Of a stretch of 64,000 bases of DNA, positions 44,234 to 55,089 are shown piece after piece. Within the stretch, counting starts at the first letter, position 1; each line of letters starts with the position of its first letter. The stretch covers positions 62,001-126,000 of the forward strand of contig JAQBPO010000076.1 of the NCBI GenBank assembly GCA_028287465.1. Reading direction: 5' to 3'. A program made the position numbers and the translations under genes. Below the pieces are notes generated by a model. The model did no database searches. It was not told the DNA's origin and was given only the letters and a program-made list of their open reading frames with translations. This DNA comes from Fibrobacterota bacterium. GTDB lineage: Bacteria; Fibrobacterota; Fibrobacteria; UBA11236.

Positions 44234-44308
44234 GGTGGAGTCTGGGAGAGTCGAACTCCCGACATCCTGCTTGCAAAGCAGGCGCTCTACCAACTGAGCT
44301 AAGACCCC
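44233..44308 (-). tRNA. tRNA-Ala (anticodon UGC)
   Basis: The minus strand reads GGGGTCTTAGCTCAGTTGG onward with a full cloverleaf. The acceptor stem GGGGTCT pairs with AGACTCC (one G-T), the anticodon stem CCTGC pairs with GCAGG around TTTGCAA, and the T-arm contains GTTCGACTC. The anticodon TGC reads alanine codons. CCA is encoded. It is a lone tRNA gene with its own terminator. Confidence 0.97.
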
Positions 44309-45063: not shown

Positions 45064-45840
45064 GTGGTCAATACATGGCGCTTTGGTCCCAATGATCTGA
45101 TCATCAGGGAGAACGACCCGGGGGAATCCGCCTACATCATCGAGTCCGGAAAGGTGGCGGTCACCAAGGAGAGCAACGGCAAGAACGTGCCCATCGCGTA
45201 CCTGGGCAAGGGAGCCACCTTCGGCGAAATGAGCATGGTGGACGATCTGCCGCGCAGCGCCAGCGTCTGGGCGGTGGAGGAGACCGTCGTGCGGGAATTC
45301 CACCGCGACGATCTCTACGGGGCGATGAAGGAGAATCCGGAAGTATTCGGCAAATTCCTGAAGAGCATCTTCGAGCGGCTGCGCGAGTCCAACCGCATCA
45401 TCGCCAACATGGATCCGGACCTGAAGAATCCCGCCCGGCTCGCCAACCTCAAGGATCCGGGCGGCAAGGTCGAAGCCTTTTCCATAGAAGGCATCACCCC
45501 GCAAGCGATCGCCGCCATCCCGGCCAATCCCTTCGCCATCAAATCCTTCCCCTTCAAGATCGGACGCAAGAGCAGCGATCCGTTCCTGTACAACCATTTC
45601 GAGATCGAGGATCAGGACCCGGCCCAGATCGCCAGGCACCATGTGAGCATCGTATTCGACAACGGCCGGATCGGCGTGATCGACCGCGGCAGCGAACACG
45701 GCGCGAACGTGGGCGGGACCCGCATCGGCGGGAGGAACGGGCCCGGCCCCGTCTACTTCGAAGGCAAGGAAGGCGTGCTCATCCTCGGCAAGGACGACTC
45801 GCCCTTCCAATTCCGGATCAAGGTGACCTGGGCGGCCTGA
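45064..45840 (+). CDS. Cyclic-nucleotide-binding domain fused to an FHA domain
   Basis: The 258-residue product starts with a cNMP-binding domain (GESAYIIESGKVAVTKES, then GATFGEMSMVDDLPRSASV with the FGE..M...PRSA phosphate-binding pattern) and ends with an FHA domain: FKIGRKSSD (164-172), ARHHVSI (190-196) and DRGSEHGANVGG (207-218), the G-R / S-x-x-H / N-G-like positions that hold phosphothreonine. It has no DNA-binding domain, so it may link a second messenger to phosphoprotein signalling. Start is the GTG at 45064, with GGAGG five bases upstream; TATAAT lies further up. It converges on the CsgG-like gene. Confidence 0.84.
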   Translation: MVNTWRFGPNDLIIRENDPGESAYIIESGKVAVTKESNGKNVPIAYLGKGATFGEMSMVDDLPRSASVWAVEETVVREFHRDDLYGAMKENPEVFGKFLKSIFERLRESNRIIANMDPDLKNPARLANLKDPGGKVEAFSIEGITPQAIAAIPANPFAIKSFPFKIGRKSSDPFLYNHFEIEDQDPAQIARHHVSIVFDNGRIGVIDRGSEHGANVGGTRIGGRNGPGPVYFEGKEGVLILGKDDSPFQFRIKVTWAA

Positions 45841-45881: not shown

Positions 45882-46877
45882 TTAAAGCCCTTCGCCAAGC
45901 TCCACCCTGTCCGCCCGCGTGATGCTGTCGCCGCGCACGATGGCGCAAACCGATACATCGTCGAAATTCCCCGTACCGTATTGGGTGAGCACCTTGATGC
46001 GGCCGACCTCGTCCCCGGGCAGCTCCAGGAATACCCCGCTGGACGGCTCCCGGAACCGCCTTCCCGGCCGGATGAGCCGCAACTCCTGGCCCGGTCTGAG
46101 GCCCGCCCGGGCTCCCGCCGAGATGACCACATTGCCCGGTGCCACATCGAGGATGCCCGCGCGCCAGGGATGGGAGCGCAGGGAAGCGGCCATGTCCGAC
46201 GCGAGGGAGGCGATGGCCGCGTTGAGGGCGCGATCCTTCAGGGAGGCGCCGTCGATCGCGTTGGCGGATCGGGAGGAACGCCGGAATATCCGGGTCGTGC
46301 CGGCGTCGGATCCGGGGCCTTGCGCCTGGGCCGCGTCCGCTTCGACGGTATCCGAATAGAAGGCCATGCCCGTCAGGGGATCCATCATGCGGACGGCCAC
46401 CTTGGCATGCGCCGCGAGCTTCCCGGCCGGTTCTCCCGGAATAAGGGCGCCGGCATCGATGCCGTACTCGAGGACGGTTCCGTAGACGAGGGCGTTGGCC
46501 CCCGTGAATCCGCTTTCCGAATCGCCCGGAGCCGTTCCGGCACCCGCGGGATCCCGCCCTCCGCGGCCGAGCACCATGAATTCGCCGCTCCTCGCGAGAT
46601 GGAAGAAAAGCATGTCCCCCGCGAGGATGCCCGGATCCTCCGGCATGCGGATTTGGCCCGATCCGTATCCGGAAACGTCTTCCACCCGCACGATGGCGAC
46701 GCGGCGCTTGGGACCCTTGGCCGCGGGCGATGCGGCCGTTGCGTCTCCGCCCGGGACCGCGCGCGTTCCGGGACCGGCGGCGCTTCGCATTGGGGTTGCG
46801 CAACCCGAGAGGATGAGGCCGGCGCAAAAGCAGATGGCGGGGAATAAGATCCCCGTTCGGGAAGGAAGGGTTCGCAT
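45882..46877 (-). CDS. CsgG/HfaB-like outer-membrane lipoprotein
   Basis: The 331-residue product has a lipoprotein signal ending in LILSGC. Next comes an alpha/beta domain of the CsgG/FlgO-like kind: RRVAIVRVEDVSG, DMLFFHLARSGEFMVLGRGG, ALVYGTVLEYG and AKVAVRMMDPLTGMAFYSDTVE, then a helix (LNAAIASLASDMAASLRS). The C-terminal part PGNVVISAGARAGLRPGQEL is a small beta-domain found in similar lipoproteins. CsgG forms secretion pores for curli; this protein could form a pore or bind another component. It ends the five-gene caspase operon, 43 bases after the barrel gene. Confidence 0.78.
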   Translation of the reverse strand: MRTLPSRTGILFPAICFCAGLILSGCATPMRSAAGPGTRAVPGGDATAASPAAKGPKRRVAIVRVEDVSGYGSGQIRMPEDPGILAGDMLFFHLARSGEFMVLGRGGRDPAGAGTAPGDSESGFTGANALVYGTVLEYGIDAGALIPGEPAGKLAAHAKVAVRMMDPLTGMAFYSDTVEADAAQAQGPGSDAGTTRIFRRSSRSANAIDGASLKDRALNAAIASLASDMAASLRSHPWRAGILDVAPGNVVISAGARAGLRPGQELRLIRPGRRFREPSSGVFLELPGDEVGRIKVLTQYGTGNFDDVSVCAIVRGDSITRADRVELGEGL

Positions 46878-46920
46878 GACGGTTTCCATCAATGCCTCGA
46901 GTCCGGCCGGAAGCGACCGG

Positions 46921-47544
46921 CTAAAAGAGGTAGTAGCCTATGGACATTCCCACGGTGAAACCGGATTCCGCGCTCGTGGCGCTCACTCCCGGCTCCGCGT
47001 CGATCCTCGGGCTCACCGTGACCCCGCCCCCGCCCAGTACGTAGAAGTAGCCGGCCGAGGTCGCGAAATAGAATCCGCGGCGATGCCCGAACTCATAGCC
47101 GACATGCACGGGGATGGCCTGTTCGGTCCGGGACGCCAGCCTGACCTTCTCGGACTGGATTTGCTCCGCCTTGGTCGTCTTGCGGGCGTATCCGGTCTCC
47201 AGGTAGAGATGATCGAAGTAATACTTCCCCATGAGGAAGTAGCTGTCGGTGCGGCTGCGATCGAGTATGGCCAGCAATTCGCTGGTGCCTCCGCCGCCCG
47301 CGCAGAGTTGCAGATGGCGCGACGGGTTCCACGCCAGCTGGATGCCCATGGGTCCCGCGGCCGCGCCGGTCTTGAGCCCCAGGCCGAACCGTCCGAAGTC
47401 CTGATCCTGCGCCGGTACCGGCCGGCCGGAAAGGAGCGCCGCGGCGAGCAATACCCATGCGGGAAACGCGCGGCATCGGCCCCTGACGGCATAAGTCGCC
47501 CGCAACGGGCCTTGGCTGATTTCGATCTTGCTCATAACGGCCAT
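46921..47544 (-). CDS. Outer-membrane barrel-like protein, free homologue of the caspase-linked domain
   Basis: The product of about 207 residues has a leader with a hydrophobic stretch (AFPAWVLLAAALLSG) and then an eight-strand barrel-like sequence: FGRFGLGLKTGAAAGPMGIQL, QAIPVHVGYEFGHRRGFYFA and SAESGFTVGMSIGYYLF, ending in phenylalanine as outer-membrane proteins do. It is clearly homologous to the C-terminal 160 residues of the caspase-like protein encoded just upstream, strand by strand. The start may be 47544 or 47535; both are ten to 20 bases after the caspase stop codon. Function is unknown. Confidence 0.72.
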   Translation of the reverse strand: MAVMSKIEISQGPLRATYAVRGRCRAFPAWVLLAAALLSGRPVPAQDQDFGRFGLGLKTGAAAGPMGIQLAWNPSRHLQLCAGGGGTSELLAILDRSRTDSYFLMGKYYFDHLYLETGYARKTTKAEQIQSEKVRLASRTEQAIPVHVGYEFGHRRGFYFATSAGYFYVLGGGGVTVSPRIDAEPGVSATSAESGFTVGMSIGYYLF

Positions 47545-47554
47545 GCCCAAAGGG

Positions 47555-49237
47555 CTAGAAGAGGTACATCCCCAGGGCGATGCCGAAGCTGAGCCCGGAT
47601 TCCGCGGTATGCCCATGGGTAAAGGCCCCCGAAGGGGTCCGCGCGGTGACGAATTCCCCGCCTTCGGTCAGCATCAATAGATAACCGACGGAAATCGTCC
47701 CGAAAATGGATTTGCGCGGCCCTACTTCCATGCCGAAATGGACCGGGACTCCCACCTCCCAACCGGAGTTGGAGGCGGTCTTCCCCGAATCGGAAATCGA
47801 AACCGTGGTCACCTTGAGGTTCAGGCCGGTGTCGAAGAAATAGGCGCCTTCATATTTCCGGATCAGGGCGAAGAGGGAGTTCTCGGTGACGCTTTCCTCG
47901 AGGAGGTTCGAGACCTGCAGGGCCGGGGGCGGTCCGGGAAATCCGAATCCGCCCTGGAATTGGAGTTCCGGATGGAGGTTGTACATGAAGGCCAGGCCCA
48001 GGATGCCCGTTCCCTCCCCTACCTTGGCGCTGAGCCCCCATTTGCGATCCGGCCCGGTCGGAAGGATATAGGAGGGCGGCCCGGGTATCACCTGGTAATT
48101 GTCCTGCAGGCTTCCCTTGATCTGATTCACCACCTGGGCCTGCTTCTTGAGGGAGGCCGGGCTGAAGTCCGAAACCCTTCCCGCGGAAACGGAAACGTCC
48201 GCCACGCGCCACTGGTCCTTCTCCACCTTGAGCACGTTGTATTCGCCTTCCGGCAGGGAGATCAGCAGCTCGCGATCGGGGCCCTTGTAGAAGTCCGCGA
48301 GGATGGATCCGCGTCGCTTGTCCACCACCAGGTATTTGCCGTCCTGCCGGAATCCGAAGACCAGGCCTCCGCTTCCCTGGGTGAGATCAGCAAGCACCAG
48401 ATCCCCTTCGCCATAGATGCGGAACTGGTAGGCCGGATGCTGGATGCCCGCGCGCGTGCGCGAAGTGGTTTCGATGGTCATCTGGTAGGCGTATTGGTAC
48501 GCCTCGTTGAGGGTGACCTTGCGGTCGCCGGAAAGATCGGCGCTGCCGCGGAGGCCGTTCAGCCAATGGTGGGTGAAGACGGAACCTTCCAACTGGTCGG
48601 ATTCCTGGGAGCGCTCGTCCATCGCGCTGGAGGCGATGATGACCTGGCCATAGACGTTCTTGAGGCTCTCGAGGGAGATGGGCCGGGTTGCGGATCCGCC
48701 CTTGAAGCGGGTGAGCATGCCGCTCTGGCAGGCATCGAAAATGCCGATCTTGACCTGGCTGGGCACGGCCTGGAACGATTCCCGCAATTTTTCCAGGGGA
48801 AACCGCGTTGCCCCCAGGCGCAGGGCGTCCCGGTCGGAATGGCCGGAATAATAGAAGAGGAAAAGATCGTCGCCATCGGGGGCCGGGGCGGGCGCGCCCG
48901 CAGCCCGGGTGGCGGCTGCCGATGGCGCCATGGGCGATCCGGAAATGCCCGCGCCCTTGCCCGGCACGGGCCCGCGGGTCAGCTTCTTCTTCATGGCCTG
49001 CAGGGCGCGATCCAGGCCAGCGCTGTCGCAGTCCATCAGCACCTGGACGTCGGCGGCGTCGAATCCGGCCAAGCGGGTGAGCACATCCTGGAAGCGGCGG
49101 GCGTCGGTCTGGGCGAAACGGAGGGAATCCACGTCCGCGCCCCCGTAGTTGTTGCCGACCAACAGGGCATGACGGCGCGCGGCCGCGTCCCCGGCGAGCA
49201 CCGCCAGGGCCAATGCCCATACGGCCGCCTTGTTCAT
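47555..49237 (-). CDS. Exported caspase-like (C14) protease fused to an outer-membrane barrel-like domain
   Basis: The 560-residue product has a signal peptide, a caspase/metacaspase fold (RHALLVGNNYGG, 22-33) with the catalytic histidine in YYSGHSD (H133) and the catalytic cysteine in DACQSG (C170), and an EF-hand-like loop DLSGDRKVTLNE (235-246). A beta-rich linker domain follows (280-360), then from about residue 401 a barrel-like domain that ends in LGMYLF. Caspase-like enzymes cut after lysine, arginine or aspartate; secreted bacterial ones are rare. Its ATG overlaps the anti-sigma stop codon (ATGA). The fusion suggests a protease tethered to the outer membrane. Confidence 0.84.
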   Translation of the reverse strand: MNKAAVWALALAVLAGDAAARRHALLVGNNYGGADVDSLRFAQTDARRFQDVLTRLAGFDAADVQVLMDCDSAGLDRALQAMKKKLTRGPVPGKGAGISGSPMAPSAAATRAAGAPAPAPDGDDLFLFYYSGHSDRDALRLGATRFPLEKLRESFQAVPSQVKIGIFDACQSGMLTRFKGGSATRPISLESLKNVYGQVIIASSAMDERSQESDQLEGSVFTHHWLNGLRGSADLSGDRKVTLNEAYQYAYQMTIETTSRTRAGIQHPAYQFRIYGEGDLVLADLTQGSGGLVFGFRQDGKYLVVDKRRGSILADFYKGPDRELLISLPEGEYNVLKVEKDQWRVADVSVSAGRVSDFSPASLKKQAQVVNQIKGSLQDNYQVIPGPPSYILPTGPDRKWGLSAKVGEGTGILGLAFMYNLHPELQFQGGFGFPGPPPALQVSNLLEESVTENSLFALIRKYEGAYFFDTGLNLKVTTVSISDSGKTASNSGWEVGVPVHFGMEVGPRKSIFGTISVGYLLMLTEGGEFVTARTPSGAFTHGHTAESGLSFGIALGMYLF

Positions 49238-50061
49238 GCCTGGGTTTTCCGGAGCAGCAGGCTTTTGAATTCGGGCTTTGCGGCGCGGTCCGTCCCGGCC
49301 GGCGCGGAGGCCGTGGAGCCGGGAGGCGGCGGCAGCACGGAGGTCAAGCCCTCCAGGTTACCGGAAGCCCGGGTAAAGGCCTCCATCAACCAGCTTTCCA
49401 CCGCCCCTCCGGCCAAGGGCTCCGGCCCGTAGATCATGACGAACAGTTCCGAACCCGGCGAGTCGTCGAGCGTGACCGCGAAAGGCATGGACTGCTTTTC
49501 ACCGGCCTTGGCCGCGAGGCTCAGGGGCGCGTCCGCGCCTTCGGCCTTGTACAGGCTCACGTGGCCGCGGGAATCGACGCTGGCCAGGGTAACGTAGGCA
49601 TGGCTTCCCGCCGCGTAGACGAACTGCAGCTCGTCCCCGGACCGGTAGGGCTCCTTGGAGGATCCGGGCGTAACGGTTTCGCCGCGCTTGACATAGTATT
49701 CCATCACCGTCCCGCCCTTGGCGCGGATCCCGTCCTCCGAGACCGCCGAGGCCGTCTGATTGTAATGGATCACCACCGGCACCAGGGCCAGGCAGGCGGC
49801 CAGGCCGGCGAGGGCGGGCATCCAGCGCGTGGACATGGAAGGCCTGCGGGCGTCCCTGCCCTCGGGCAGATGCTTGGCCGCGAATTCCCGGAAGGGATGG
49901 GCGATCAGGTATTCCCGTTTCCGGTTCTCCAGCGTCGCCATATGGCCGCGGCAGCCGGGGCATCCGTCCAGGTGAAGGCGCACCGAGCGTTTCTCTTCGG
50001 TTCCGCTTTCGCCCAGAAAGTACCGCTCCACCAGGACGCGATTGCATTGTTCAGTAGGCAT
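49234..50061 (-). CDS. Anti-sigma factor with a zinc-binding N-terminus and DUF4384-like outer domain
   Basis: The 275-residue product begins with a zf-HC2 zinc motif (H30-x3-C34-x2-C37, with C6 as a likely further ligand) that would hold the sigma factor. A transmembrane helix follows (WMPALAGLAACLALVPVVI, about 80-98). The outer part contains YVKRGETVTPGSSKEPYRSGDEL and AYVTLASVDSRGHVSLYK, strands of the DUF4384 kind known from caspase-linked signalling loci. It overlaps the sigma gene by 11 bases and the caspase gene by four. Release of the sigma factor by an envelope signal would switch on the operon. Confidence 0.84.
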   Translation of the reverse strand: MPTEQCNRVLVERYFLGESGTEEKRSVRLHLDGCPGCRGHMATLENRKREYLIAHPFREFAAKHLPEGRDARRPSMSTRWMPALAGLAACLALVPVVIHYNQTASAVSEDGIRAKGGTVMEYYVKRGETVTPGSSKEPYRSGDELQFVYAAGSHAYVTLASVDSRGHVSLYKAEGADAPLSLAAKAGEKQSMPFAVTLDDSPGSELFVMIYGPEPLAGGAVESWLMEAFTRASGNLEGLTSVLPPPPGSTASAPAGTDRAAKPEFKSLLLRKTQA

Positions 50062-50581
50062 GCTGCCCCTCCAATTTCTCGAGTTTCCACTGAGCCGTCT
50101 GGCGGCGGAAGCGCGTGAGGTGTTTCCGGATGGTGGAAGGCGCTAGTCCGGTCATGGTCGATATCTCATCCTGGGTGTAGCCGTCCCAATAGGTGTACAT
50201 CACGATGTCCCGGACCATCTTGCTCCAGGGCATCATCAGCTTCCTCAGGATGTCCCGGAGGATGATGCGTTTCTCCTCCGAATCGTCCGCGTGCAGGGGG
50301 CTGTCCTCCCACCCGTCCTCGTTGTCCGGCCCCACGAACTTCCTACGACGCCAAAGTGAAATACAATGGTTGGTCGTGGTCCGGTGGATCCAGAACAACG
50401 CCGATTCCCGGTTCTGCACCGAATCCCAGTGTTCCAACAGTTTCAGGAACACTTCGCTGGTCGCATCCTGGGCTTCTTCCTTGGAACGGAGGAATCGCAG
50501 GCAGCGGCGATAGATCATGGGAGCGTACTTTTCGTACAACTCCTGTTGTGTGGCCCTATCGCTTGCTGTCATGCCTTCCAT
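50051..50581 (-). CDS. ECF-type RNA polymerase sigma factor
   Basis: The 176-residue product has the sigma-2 and sigma-4 regions of a short ECF factor: ELYEKYAPMIYRRCLRFLRSKEEAQDATSEVFLKLLEHW and the wing of the -35 binding helix DGYTQDEISTMTGLAPSTIRKHL. It begins the five-gene minus-strand operon with anti-sigma factor, caspase-like protease, barrel and CsgG-like lipoprotein. The start at 50581 has GGAG at short spacing; 50572 is possible. It should transcribe an envelope-stress regulon that probably includes its own operon. Confidence 0.88.
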   Translation of the reverse strand: MEGMTASDRATQQELYEKYAPMIYRRCLRFLRSKEEAQDATSEVFLKLLEHWDSVQNRESALFWIHRTTTNHCISLWRRRKFVGPDNEDGWEDSPLHADDSEEKRIILRDILRKLMMPWSKMVRDIVMYTYWDGYTQDEISTMTGLAPSTIRKHLTRFRRQTAQWKLEKLEGQHAY

Positions 50582-51086
50582 TCCGCTCCGGAAACCCAAG
50601 ACCCGCCTTTTCAGGGGCGGTCGCGCGCCAGGGCGCAGGTTTCTTTCGCTTCCAACCGGTTTTACGCTTTAGACGCTTCGATCCGCTACGCCGTCCCGGA
50701 AAGATCCGGGTAAAATCGCTCAAGCCCGGCGCGGGGATCCGTTATCGGAAAGTTAGCTAACCCACGGAAAGGAATGGAGTAATAGCGATAAAGACCGGCC
50801 CGGAATTGCCCGGTAATTTGAGGATTCCCTGCCTGATCGTAAACATCCAAACCCTTGGTCGAAGGGTTTAGGGGATTTTCGGTGTTGTACGATAAAGGGG
50901 TAGGGATACGGATTTTGTACAAATTTACGCCGCAAGCGTACTCGATTGAAAAATCGTTCGGGCCTAGGTTAGGACATCGCCGGGCCCATTTCGGAGCCGA
51001 GGCGCGGAGCACCCGATAAAGCCTTCCGCCGATTCGGGCGACCGCTTCCCGCGCCAACGACGATTCAAACAGAGGGAGTGGGGAAA
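50582..51086. other. AT-richer intergenic region between the sigma and ThuA genes
   Basis: About 500 bases, noticeably lower in G+C than the flanks, and the divergent promoter region of two operons. A 123-residue frame on the minus strand (50686-51057) is present but its composition, with many asparagine and proline residues and no ribosome-binding site, argues against a gene. It holds the hairpin at 50849-50869. Confidence 0.5.
50849..50869. promoter_or_regulatory. Perfect 8-base-pair hairpin in the sigma/ThuA intergenic region
   Basis: AAACCCTT (50849-50856) and AAGGGTTT (50862-50869) pair around a GGTCG loop in an AT-rich stretch; the plus strand continues AGGGGATTTTC. It could be a terminator-like element, a regulatory RNA hairpin or an operator. 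Confidence 0.38.
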
Positions 51087-52190
51087 ATGGTCGACATCAG
51101 CAGGTTTCTTTCGGTTTCGGTAGGTTCGGCTTTGGCGCTCTCCGTCGCCGCATCCGCGGCGCCCATTCGCGTCCTGATGTTCAACCCCTGCGGCCCTGGC
51201 GGTTACATCCACCCCATCAGCCAACAGACGCCCCTCATCAAGAAGATGCTGCTCAATCCCGCGGCCGCCAATCTGCAGAATCCGGTCATCCCGCCGGACG
51301 GATTCACCGTGGACTCCCTCGGATCCGCCACCCAGAACGGGACGACGACCGACGGCCATAACCTCATCGTCGCCTTGGCCACCCATGACGTGGTCGTCTG
51401 CGTGAACAATACCGCCTTCACGGGCCTGTTCACCCCCACCGATCAGAAGGCCTTCCTGGCCTGGGCGGCCGAAAAGGGCCACGGAGTGGTGGCCTTCCAC
51501 GGCGCCACGGACGACAACGGCAACTGGCCCGAGAAGATCACCTATTTCGGCGGCAAGTTCACCACCCATACCACCGCGCCCGTCATGGTTCTCGCCGACA
51601 GCACCCCCGCGAACGTAGCCGACAAGAACTTCCAGGCCCTCAGCCTGGGCATCCCGAAGAGCCTGACCGTCACGGACGAGTGGTATAGCTACCAGAGCGC
51701 CCCGCGCGCCATTCCCGGCATCAAGGTCCTGAGCACCCTCAACGAGGCCACCTACAATCCGGACAGCAAGATGGGCGACCATCCCATCAGCTGGTTCCGC
51801 GCCCCTGAAAACGGAGGCCGCCTCTACTATACGGGAGCGGGCCATGACTGGCAGTATTTCCGGGACACCTACTGGCTCCGCCGCCAGATGTACAACGGAA
51901 TCCTGTGGGCATCGGGCTGGTCCCCTTCCTCCACGGCCAAGTTCATCGACCCGAAGCCCGGCGCCCTGAACAGCTCCTCCCAGGTTTCCGGTTCCTCGCT
52001 GCTGGTCAACGTGGATCGCGCCGGAGCCCATGCGGTTGAAATCCGCGGCCTGGACGGCAAGCGCGTCGCCATGGAAAAGGGCGCCGGAAAGCGGTCCTAT
52101 ACCTTCACCAACCTGAAACCGAATTCGGTCTACGCCCTGCTCGTCTCGACTCCCCGCGAGAAGACCCGCCAGCTCATCAAGACCCGCTAA
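51087..52190 (+). CDS. Secreted ThuA-domain protein, copy 1
   Basis: The 367-residue product has a signal peptide, then a ThuA domain (glutamine-amidotransferase-like fold, of the trehalose-utilisation family): PIRVLMFNPC, HGVVAFHGATDD, HPISWFR and LYYTGAGHDWQYF. ThuA proteins are linked to sugar metabolism, but their reaction is not settled. It ends in a C-terminal domain (VEIRGLDGKRVAMEKG to LIKTR) of the sorting-like kind, with a LIKTR ending shared with its paralogue. GGGAGTGGGGA precedes the ATG at 51087. Start of the cluster that continues with two outer-membrane proteins. Confidence 0.86.
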   Translation: MVDISRFLSVSVGSALALSVAASAAPIRVLMFNPCGPGGYIHPISQQTPLIKKMLLNPAAANLQNPVIPPDGFTVDSLGSATQNGTTTDGHNLIVALATHDVVVCVNNTAFTGLFTPTDQKAFLAWAAEKGHGVVAFHGATDDNGNWPEKITYFGGKFTTHTTAPVMVLADSTPANVADKNFQALSLGIPKSLTVTDEWYSYQSAPRAIPGIKVLSTLNEATYNPDSKMGDHPISWFRAPENGGRLYYTGAGHDWQYFRDTYWLRRQMYNGILWASGWSPSSTAKFIDPKPGALNSSSQVSGSSLLVNVDRAGAHAVEIRGLDGKRVAMEKGAGKRSYTFTNLKPNSVYALLVSTPREKTRQLIKTR

Positions 52191-52258
52191 GCGAAAACCT
52201 TCCATCCCTTTCATTCGCGCCCGCAGGATCCATTCCCGCGGGTGCCTCAGGAGCAAGA

Positions 52259-53647
52259 ATGAGCAAAAGGCCTTCCTTTTCCCTTTCCCCGGCTTTACCG
52301 GCAACGCTGACCACCCTCCTCCTCGCTGGCTTTTTCGCGACCGCGCATGCGGCCGATGAAGCGGACGGCGGAGTCCGTTACAGCCCGATCTCCATCGCCG
52401 GGCAGATCGACGTCGGCCAGGTCATCAACGGGGAGACCGGTTGGCATGAATCGGGAAGCCTCAACGGCGTGAAGTTCGACGGCGACTTCTTCCAGCGCAC
52501 GGGCGTGTGGATCACCCAGGAAGCGACGGTAAGGGATCGCCTGAGCCTCACCATGGGCGTCGGCGGCCTCTTCTGGTACGCGCTGCCGACCGGCGGCGAT
52601 CCGAGCAGCAAGCTCACCCAGTTCGGCCCGGGCATCTCCCAGGCCCAGGCGATGTACAAGTTCGGGGATCTTGCCGCCCCCAAGGCCAGCCTCCAGATGG
52701 GCCTCTTCCCTTACAAGTACAATCCGGACGCCAAGGATCTCGGGGAGTACCTCCTGCGTTCCGGCGCGTATCCCAACTACGTCATCTCCGGCGGCTGGAA
52801 CATGATTTCCAGCGCCGCCTACATGGTGGAAGGCTTCCGCTTCAACCTTTCCCTCATGGACGGCAGATTCCAATCGGATTTCATCCTGCCCATGGAACAT
52901 GACATCCCCCCCATGTTCGACCTCTCCCCCACCTACGTGGCCACCCTGAGGGCCGTTCCCGGAGTGGAGTTCGGCGCCGGCATCGATTGCAACCATTGCA
53001 TCGCCATCAAGCCCAGCAAGCTGAGCCCGCATATCCCCGAGAACCAGGTGATCGTCAAGGACTCCGCCGACGTGGACGGCAACCATACCTACTTGAGGGA
53101 TTCCACCAAATTCTACACCTTCATGGGCCTGAAGCTGATGGGCCGCCTCTCCCTGGACCCTAAGGCGTTCTTTACCGCCTCCATCCTGGGCGAAGAGGAT
53201 CTGAAACTCTACGGTGAAGTGGCCGTGCTCGGCCTCAAGAACTACGGCTTCCTATACGAAAAGGTTTCCGAGCGCATGCCCCTCATGGTCGGCTTCAACG
53301 TCCCGGCCTTCAAGCTCCTGGACGTACTCTCGGTGGAGTTCGAATATTACCCGACCAGGTTCCCCACCAGCCTCTACCAGCCCATCGCCAACCAGCTGCC
53401 CACCCTGGATCTGATGCAGGGCCCGGCGGATAAGGCTTCGTACGATCGGGCCAACAAGGACGACGTGAAATGGGCCATCTACGCCAAGAAGGAAGTCATC
53501 AAGGGCATCCAGCTCTACGCCCAGGTGGCCAGCGATCATCTCCGCTCCATCGCGTACAATGCGGGACCGCAACCGACCTTCGTTCCCATCACCAACCGGA
53601 ACGGCAAGGATTGGTACTACATCCTCCGCCTCCAATTCGGAATCTGA
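52259..53647 (+). CDS. Outer-membrane-protein-like, copy 1 of a tandem pair
   Basis: The 462-residue product has a signal peptide and then alternating hydrophobic strands typical of a beta-barrel (SLTMGVGGLFWYALP, ASLQMGLFPYKYNPD, GRFQSDFILPMEHDIPPM, FYTFMGLKLMGRLSLDPK), ending in YYILRLQFGI. A conserved CNHCI motif (DCNHCIAIKPS) gives a close cysteine pair, unusual in a barrel. No known family is recognised. It follows the ThuA gene by 69 bases and is followed by a paralogue after 24 bases, so the genes look co-transcribed. Substrate or partner is unknown. Confidence 0.75.
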   Translation: MSKRPSFSLSPALPATLTTLLLAGFFATAHAADEADGGVRYSPISIAGQIDVGQVINGETGWHESGSLNGVKFDGDFFQRTGVWITQEATVRDRLSLTMGVGGLFWYALPTGGDPSSKLTQFGPGISQAQAMYKFGDLAAPKASLQMGLFPYKYNPDAKDLGEYLLRSGAYPNYVISGGWNMISSAAYMVEGFRFNLSLMDGRFQSDFILPMEHDIPPMFDLSPTYVATLRAVPGVEFGAGIDCNHCIAIKPSKLSPHIPENQVIVKDSADVDGNHTYLRDSTKFYTFMGLKLMGRLSLDPKAFFTASILGEEDLKLYGEVAVLGLKNYGFLYEKVSERMPLMVGFNVPAFKLLDVLSVEFEYYPTRFPTSLYQPIANQLPTLDLMQGPADKASYDRANKDDVKWAIYAKKEVIKGIQLYAQVASDHLRSIAYNAGPQPTFVPITNRNGKDWYYILRLQFGI

Positions 53648-53670
53648 GAAAGAAGGAGGGAGGGAATACC

Positions 53671-55089
53671 ATGGGTAAACGATATCCTGCCGGCGCGAGC
53701 CTGGCCGCCATTCTCGGGATCCTGATGTCCGCAGCCTCCGCCGAGGCGACGGAAGGGACCGGCAACGATGCGGACGTCCGCGCGCTCCCCTTGTCCATGT
53801 CCACCCAGGTGGACGCGGGCCAGGTGGTGCACGGGCACGTGAACGATCAGCCTTTGAAAGAGCAGTTCCTGCAGCGCACCGCGGTCTGGCTCACCCAGGA
53901 AGTGGTGATCAAGGACCGCCTGAGCGTCAAGGCCGGCATAGGCGGCGTATTCTGGTACGCCATCCCGGGCGGCGAACTCAACGGGGACGCGGCCCATAAG
54001 AACCTCACCCGTTTCGGCCCGGGCATCTCCCAGGTCCAGGCGATCTATTCCTTCGGCGCCCTGGAATCCCCGAGCGCCAAGATCCAGATGGGACTGTTCC
54101 CGTACAAATACAATCCCGACGCCATGAACCTGGGCGAGTACCTTCTGCGTTCCGGGACCTACCCGGGCATCCTCCAGACCGGCGGATGGAACATCGTTTC
54201 CAAGGCCGCCTATATGATGCAGGGCGTCCGCTTGAACGTCCCCCTGTGGGACGGCAGATTCCAATCGGATTTCCTCCTTCCCATGGAACGGGATATCGCT
54301 CCCATGGGCGATCTTTCCCCGACCTATGTCGCTTCGCTCCGGCCCGTCGCCGGGCTCGAGATCGGAGCGGGAGCGGACTGCAACCATTGCATCGCGTTCA
54401 AGCCCAGCCGGACCTCGCCGAAAAAGCTGGCCGATCCAAACGATCCGAGCGGCAATCCCGGCAACGCCTATATCATCGCCAATCCGGACGTGGCGGGACG
54501 CGATACCCTGCCCTATATCCGGGACACGACGCGCTTCTACACCTTCCAGGGCGTGAAGCTGATGGGCCGCGTCTCCCTGGATCCCAAAGCCTATTTCGCG
54601 TCCGACCTCCTGGGCGCCGAGGACCTTAAGGTATTCGCCGAACTCGCGGTGCTGGGCGTCAAGAACTACCCCTTCCTCTACGAGAAGGTCGGGGAGCGCA
54701 TGCCCATCATGTTCGGGGTCAACCTGCCCACCTTCAAGCTACTGGACGTCCTCTCCTTCCAGATGGAGCATTACAAATCGAAATTCCCCAACAGCTCCTA
54801 CGACCTGTACTATTTCAACCTGCCCATCGTGAACGGCGTGACCAAGAACGGCATCCGGACCCAGAATCCCAATACCTACGATATGGAGAATTCCGCGGTC
54901 CGCAGGGACGATTGGAAGTGGTCCGTCTACGCCAAGCGGGAAATCGCCAAGGGCATTTCCATCTACGCGCAAGTGGCCAATGATCATCTGCGCGTGCCCG
55001 CCTTCGATCTGAAGCCTTCCTGGACCCAGATCACGGATCGCAACGGCAAGGATTACTACTACATGGTCCGCTTCGAGATGGGCATCTGA
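53671..55089 (+). CDS. Outer-membrane-protein-like, copy 2 of a tandem pair
   Basis: The 472-residue product is a close paralogue of the one encoded upstream: shared strands include VFWYAIPGG, QMGLFPYKYNPDAMNLGEYL and GRFQSDFLLPMERDI. It keeps the cysteine pair (DCNHCIAFKPS) and ends in YYMVRFEMGI. A signal peptide begins the protein. AGGAGGGAGG sits just before the ATG at 53671. The two proteins may form a hetero-oligomeric channel or divide ligand range. Confidence 0.75.
   Translation: MGKRYPAGASLAAILGILMSAASAEATEGTGNDADVRALPLSMSTQVDAGQVVHGHVNDQPLKEQFLQRTAVWLTQEVVIKDRLSVKAGIGGVFWYAIPGGELNGDAAHKNLTRFGPGISQVQAIYSFGALESPSAKIQMGLFPYKYNPDAMNLGEYLLRSGTYPGILQTGGWNIVSKAAYMMQGVRLNVPLWDGRFQSDFLLPMERDIAPMGDLSPTYVASLRPVAGLEIGAGADCNHCIAFKPSRTSPKKLADPNDPSGNPGNAYIIANPDVAGRDTLPYIRDTTRFYTFQGVKLMGRVSLDPKAYFASDLLGAEDLKVFAELAVLGVKNYPFLYEKVGERMPIMFGVNLPTFKLLDVLSFQMEHYKSKFPNSSYDLYYFNLPIVNGVTKNGIRTQNPNTYDMENSAVRRDDWKWSVYAKREIAKGISIYAQVANDHLRVPAFDLKPSWTQITDRNGKDYYYMVRFEMGI

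Follow-up and report, generated by a model that had tools for sequence, protein, structure and literature searches.

A sigma factor, anti-sigma factor and caspase module of Fibrobacterota with a putative shared Lys-Gly cleavage motif

Caspase homologues are common in bacteria and, to our knowledge, few of their substrates are known outside CRISPR and gasdermin systems. The part of the article by Asplund-Samuelsson et al. 2012 (PMC3501461) drawn on here is a survey which notes that metacaspase operons may include a sigma-70 gene, as in four genera of Deltaproteobacteria (Myxococcus, Anaeromyxobacter, Haliangium and Sorangium) and in Ralstonia and Fibrobacter. In Craspase (Csx29, Csx30 and CASP-sigma of type III-E CRISPR), a caspase-like protease cuts the inhibitor of a sigma factor resembling the extracytoplasmic function (ECF) group (PMC10028731). 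In this work, we have analysed a window of 64,000 nucleotides from a Fibrobacterota bacterium (JAQBPO010000076.1, positions 62,001 to 126,000; contig C10 of a 5.8 Mb assembly), which carries an operon coding for an ECF sigma factor, a membrane anti-sigma factor and an exported caspase. Our analysis makes it reasonably probable that this caspase cuts itself and then, after a lysine, the anti-sigma factor, freeing the sigma factor.

The proposal is founded on a short motif present in both partners. In an alignment of 22 anti-sigma factors, 17–70% identical to that of the window, only K115-G116 and one leucine are invariant, and the consensus of the stalk over 92 anti-sigma factors is T (41%), R (79%), x, K (98%), G (97%), within poorly conserved surroundings. 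In the AlphaFold2 (AF2) model, K115 sits between the transmembrane (TM) helix and the first periplasmic strand (residue 119), beside a low-confidence segment (residues 102–114). Over 98 caspases, the consensus of the loop that follows the catalytic cysteine is T (72%), R (79%), x, K (97%), G (100%). Animal caspases have their self-processing site in this same loop. In both proteins the motif lies in or beside low-confidence, apparently disordered segments of the models, and the presence of the same cut-site-like motif in the protease and in the inhibitor suggests cleavage of the inhibitor by the protease as the step that activates the switch. The motif prediction was fixed in writing before the other classes of the phylum were opened. 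In those classes 30 of 33 caspases have KG and three have RG, while 32 of 35 anti-sigma factors have KG, the rest showing RG, KA or KS. As controls, the motif was found in none of 12 loops of unlinked plasmid caspases and is missing from an unlinked caspase of the same genome as the window; among 510 other proteins of these loci, two contain [T/S]RxKG. At one locus (L149, genome G065) P1 is arginine instead of lysine in both partners, the caspase loop reading AFRGG and the anti-sigma stalk RYRGS; the caspase of the sister locus L150 has RG, its anti-sigma factor KG.

The caspase scores 46 bits with PF00656 (cut-off 21.4), which places it in Peptidase C14, and a His-Cys dyad is intact in every row of an alignment with 22 relatives and of a later one with 98. 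The aspartate two residues before the cysteine, Asp168, is also invariant, as expected for a basic S1 pocket; orthocaspases cleave after basic residues (PMC6426788). The AF2 model comprises a caspase fold, a beta-sandwich and a barrel of eight up-down strands, which runs from residue 400 to a C-terminal Phe, and the predicted local distance difference test (pLDDT) falls below 50 in residues 13–18, 94–120, 179–192 and 369–393. Foldseek relates the front part to caspase-8, MALT1 and metacaspases and the back part to OmpA, OprF, CarO and Ail. From this model, the caspase appears to be anchored in the outer membrane. Assignment to the EACC1-associated caspases of counter-invader systems was considered and discarded: NF047832 gave 60.3 bits against a cut-off of 140, and no EAD gene was seen adjacent.

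The anti-sigma factor combines Hx3Cx2C with a subsequent TM helix, and its gene follows that of the sigma factor, as in the zinc-binding anti-sigma (ZAS) class; its partner has sigma-70 regions 2 and 4 only, as is usual for ECF sigma factors. The periplasmic domain scores 22.4 bits with DUF4384, below the Pfam cut-off of 27, and Foldseek returned no significant match for the anti-sigma model. In one subfamily (L045, L046, L047) the anti-sigma factor has no zinc domain and the sigma factor is barely similar, and the TRxKG stalk motif is still kept.

A preliminary description of this window had proposed five minus-strand genes bound into one unit, coding for the sigma factor, the anti-sigma factor, the caspase with its barrel, a free barrel homologue and a CsgG-like lipoprotein. 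Its coordinates and junctions are reproduced exactly: overlaps of 11 bases (sigma/anti-sigma) and 4 bases (anti-sigma/caspase), then gaps of 10 bases (caspase to barrel) and 43 bases (barrel to CsgG-like gene). Its gene identities were right as well, with Sigma70_r2, Sigma70_r4_2, zf-HC2, Peptidase_C14 and CsgG above the Pfam cut-off and DUF4384 just below, and so was its view of the protease as exported and fused to a barrel, given the signal peptide and the C-terminal barrel of the model. A comparison of gene order with relatives, set beforehand as the check that could refute the unit, left the first four genes standing: sigma, anti-sigma, caspase and barrel follow each other in four related loci, all of which keep the 11-base overlap, so the arrangement is more than chance. 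To judge by gene order, the core of the operon is the sigma, anti-sigma and caspase trio.

The linkage extends through the phylum. Whole-protein searches with the caspase found matches in 52 of 61 related genomes, and gene calling around these matches showed the trio in nearly every genome of the Fibrobacter class. Most Fibrobacter genomes have one copy, with a caspase of about 750–830 aa. The genus of the window has several paralogous copies, of which the genome of the window holds at least five, including those on contigs C4, C43, C50 and C51. The anti-sigma family is present in 134 of 168 genomes and 31 of 41 genera of the phylum, and at all 33 out-of-class loci with enough sequence a caspase gene lies downstream of the anti-sigma gene. 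The barrel gene joins the trio in this genus only (five loci, the window included). Searches of plasmids for sigma-linked caspases in other phyla found no sigma, anti-sigma and caspase operon, and the matches served as controls; on a plasmid of the cyanobacterium Rippkaea orientalis (L197), a caspase-domain gene is followed 70 bases later by a sigma-70 gene.

What accompanies the trio differs. At three Fibrobacter loci (L048, L049, L052) the caspase gene is followed by one for a protein of about 835 aa. The TonB plug domain PF07715 scored above cut-off in L048, the protein tested, and the module may thus commonly have a partner in the outer membrane. In the paralogous modules L061, L064, L065, L066, L070, L071 and L072, a gene for a differing exported protein or lipoprotein overlaps the caspase gene by 4 bases. 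Gene content thus indicates that the accessory proteins are different between the subfamilies of the module.

Upstream of the sigma gene lies a candidate ECF promoter, TAGCGGATC-N13-CGT, which is found also directly before the barrel gene in two relatives (genomes G002 and G005). In the window the gap between caspase and barrel genes has shrunk to 10 bases and the second site is absent. A genome pattern search returned 11 sites in four genomes, six of them in this locus, and the reversed pattern none. The position of the motif before the sigma gene and, in the two relatives, the barrel gene implies autoregulation, and fits a sigma factor that would transcribe its own operon and the barrel gene. 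The other sites from a looser search of six genomes were background-like, and a scan for sigma-70 promoters and terminators gave nothing above shuffled sequences. A second conserved box, TTAGCTAACTTTC, was rejected as a regulon marker: the genome of the window has one such site, and G005 has four, mostly elsewhere.

We propose that, at rest, the anti-sigma factor would bind the ECF sigma factor through its zinc domain in the cytoplasm, and that its TM helix and a short stalk would connect this domain to the DUF4384-like one in the periplasm. The exported caspase would have its eight-stranded C-terminal barrel in the outer membrane and its protease domain in the periplasm, and a perturbation of the barrel or of its surroundings would be the trigger. 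The caspase would then process itself after Lys179 (TRFK/GG, the slash marking the predicted bond), may leave the barrel by a cut at K374/G375, and would cut the anti-sigma stalk after Lys115 (RAK/GG), some 11 residues beyond the TM helix on the periplasmic side. Proteolysis of the usual kind, within the membrane and in the cytoplasm, would then free the sigma factor to transcribe its own operon and also, in relatives, the gene of the free barrel. The broader idea of a phylum-wide outer-membrane switch, in which one Lys-Gly-specific caspase uses one motif three times (activation loop, barrel release and anti-sigma stalk) and relays the state of the outer membrane to transcription, is put forward tentatively and with some doubt, jointly with the view that the module has been duplicated within genomes, some copies having their own accessory envelope protein.

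Several observations weigh against this mechanism. Beyond the group of the window, the caspases differ in their C-terminal part, and the barrel in the outer membrane is modelled for the window protein only. The zinc motif is missing from many relatives and from several paralogous anti-sigma factors. The folded core of the caspase has three further [K/R]G columns (near residues 196, 217 and 230), so a basic residue followed by glycine can be conserved without marking a site of cleavage, and K-G could owe its conservation to a structural or docking role and not to cutting. An aromatic P2 in both partners was examined as proof of matched specificity and dropped; the tree confines the covariation to one clade, and for this reason it is not independent evidence. 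A homologue of site-2 proteases (M50) is encoded in the genome, but these genes are near-universal and lend no specific support. Finally, the sequences and models show the order and phylum-wide distribution of the genes, the intact catalytic residues, the predicted fold and the recurrence of motif and promoter, whereas we infer every cleavage, the trigger, the order of events, the insertion into the outer membrane and the binding of the sigma factor.

Could the caspase be a product of the regulon and not its switch? The sigma factor would then be controlled by ligand binding to the DUF4384-like domain or by another site-1 protease, and the caspase, an envelope protease made under stress, would take no part in cleaving the anti-sigma factor. 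The caspase gene does lie downstream of the sigma promoter within the operon, and ECF operons often encode their outputs. This explanation is nevertheless unlikely, as it does not account for the only near-invariant feature of the anti-sigma factor being a copy of the motif in the self-processing loop of the caspase, nor for the retention of that motif in classes not seen when the prediction was made. Less probable still is a pseudosubstrate latch, in which the TRxKG stalk would dock in the active site of the caspase without being cut and so keep the enzyme silent at the inner membrane, both being released on a signal. The same motif data can be read in this way, and an invariant motif also fits binding, but the active dyad is present in 98 of 98 caspases, and a Lys-Gly bound in an unfolded stalk would be expected to be cut.

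The preliminary description had seen in the locus a five-gene outer-membrane stress, secretion or self/non-self system, which would need a CsgG-like pore. The CsgG-like gene is co-directional with the others, 43 bases downstream, and its product has a lipobox and matches Pfam CsgG above cut-off. Nevertheless, none of the four related loci has an intact CsgG gene adjacent to the module: it is absent from three, and in the fourth (G005) the C-terminal, FlgT_C-like part remains alone. The link to a fifth member is therefore not kept, and CsgG is also absent from most module-bearing genomes. A profile search of PDB sequences with the CsgG-like protein retrieved no CsgG chain at E up to 1, which leaves the pore unsupported. 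G002 still has a small barrel there, which shares 30% identity with the one at the end of an operon of DUF4810, GNA1162, CsgG, PEGA and outer-membrane protein genes. This remnant and that of G005 indicate that the link once existed. The DUF4810-type operon is a likely source, with CsgG relatives 33–39% identical to that of the window, but in related genomes it is a separate operon, with neither sigma nor caspase gene. We read the gene as part of an old insertion from such an operon, which would be eroding differently in each genome; the lipoprotein is probably not a core part of the module. The five-gene system is thus very improbable, and of the functions suggested for the locus, outer-membrane or envelope signalling fits, whereas secretion and self/non-self recognition are unsupported. 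Scarcely credible is an anti-phage or programmed-death module with the caspase as effector: bacterial caspases do occur in defence systems and type III-E CRISPR pairs a caspase-like protease with a sigma inhibitor (PMC10028731), but the module is present in most genomes of the phylum, one paralogue has a conserved chromosomal place beside housekeeping-like genes (L062, L066, L072), no PADLOC match is better than E = 0.04, and the predicted location is periplasmic.

Table 1. Features of the operon region, in positions of the window.
Feature	Position	Strand	Evidence
ECF sigma factor, 176 aa	50051..50581	-	Pfam Sigma70_r2 9e-16, Sigma70_r4_2 2e-7; TIGR02937 above cut-off
Candidate ECF-type promoter TAGCGGATC-N13-CGT	50664..50688	-	before sigma gene in 4/5 orthologous loci (upstream comparison)
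Conserved upstream box TTAGCTAACTTTC	50748..50760	-	upstream of sigma gene in G000, G002 and G005 loci
Membrane anti-sigma factor, 275 aa: zinc-type N-terminus, one TM helix, DUF4384-like periplasmic domain	49234..50061	-	Pfam zf-HC2; AF2 mean pLDDT 83
Zinc-binding motif H30-x3-C34-x2-C37	49951..49974	-	sequence; zf-HC2 match residues 11-38
Predicted TM helix, residues 80-104	49750..49824	-	AF2 helix H80-104
K115-G116, predicted cleavage site in periplasmic stalk, context GIRAK/GG	49714..49719	-	invariant in 22/22; K 98%, G 97% (n=92)
Exported caspase with C-terminal outer-membrane-type barrel, 560 aa	47555..49237	-	Peptidase_C14 6.8e-12; AF2 mean pLDDT 82
Catalytic His133	48839..48841	-	H in 98/98 relatives
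Catalytic Cys170 in D168-A-C170	48728..48730	-	C and preceding Asp in 98/98
K179-G180, predicted self-processing site TRFK/GG, 9 residues after catalytic Cys	48698..48703	-	[K/R]G 98/98; within low-pLDDT loop 179-192
K374-G375, predicted barrel-release site in linker to barrel	48113..48118	-	[K/R]G in 92/98; within low-pLDDT linker 369-393
8-stranded C-terminal barrel, residues 400-560, C-terminal Phe	47558..48040	-	AF2 strands 400 to 559; Foldseek OmpA/OprF/CarO/Ail
Free outer-membrane barrel homologue, 207 aa	46921..47544	-	32% identity to caspase C-terminal barrel, E about 2e-13
CsgG-like lipoprotein, lipobox LILSGC	45882..46877	-	PF03783 26.7 bits, cut-off 20.8

Around these features (Table 1), a gene for a protein with cyclic nucleotide monophosphate (cNMP)-binding and FHA domains (45064-45840, plus strand) converges with the CsgG-like gene, and a tRNA gene (44236-44308, minus strand), which alone was matched in the Rfam scan, lies just downstream of the operon region. 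On the other side, genes for a ThuA-domain protein and then two similar predicted exported proteins (51078-55089, plus strand) are divergent from the operon.

What would such a switch mean? A natural caspase substrate and the exact bond cut would be readable, as a prediction, from the sequence. If the proposal is true, caspase-type proteolysis would relay outer-membrane information to an ECF sigma factor across a whole phylum, including the cellulose-degrading gut Fibrobacter, with no link to cell death, and a mechanism could be offered for the sigma-metacaspase operons on record since 2012. Those operons share with the module a sigma factor and a caspase homologue in one operon, but the part of the 2012 article considered here makes no mention, for these operons, of an anti-sigma link, an outer-membrane barrel, a cut-site motif in common or a mechanism (PMC3501461). 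In a literature search of partial coverage, neither a caspase tethered by a barrel nor a cut-site motif common to an anti-sigma factor and a caspase was found described; the shared motif and the outer-membrane tether appear to be new, whereas sigma-metacaspase operons in Fibrobacter are not.

In Craspase, too, a caspase-like protease acts on a sigma inhibitor, as is predicted here, but that protease is a cytoplasmic, RNA-activated CHAT/TPR protein working with Cas7-11, whereas the one described here is predicted to be exported and barrel-anchored, and its inhibitor to be a membrane protein with the site in a periplasmic stalk. The sigmaE/RseA/DegS/RseP system of E. coli resembles the predicted pathway in that a periplasmic anti-sigma region is cut near the membrane upon an outer-membrane signal; DegS, however, is an inner-membrane PDZ serine protease encoded elsewhere, and here the protease would be a caspase-clan cysteine protease that has a barrel fused to it and is encoded within the operon itself. 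As in FecI/FecR/FecA, an outer-membrane barrel protein, an inner-membrane anti-sigma factor and an ECF sigma factor are encoded together, but FecA is a TonB receptor that signals by contact, whereas here the barrel carries a protease. In the CalpL/CalpT/CalpS cascade of type III CRISPR a dedicated protease reportedly acts on a sigma inhibitor, as we propose for the caspase. CalpL differs in being a Lon-like SAVED protease, cytoplasmic and responding to a cyclic-oligoadenylate signal (PMC11417357). With these likenesses and differences, we would place the module, as read from its sequence, among the protease-activated anti-sigma pathways.

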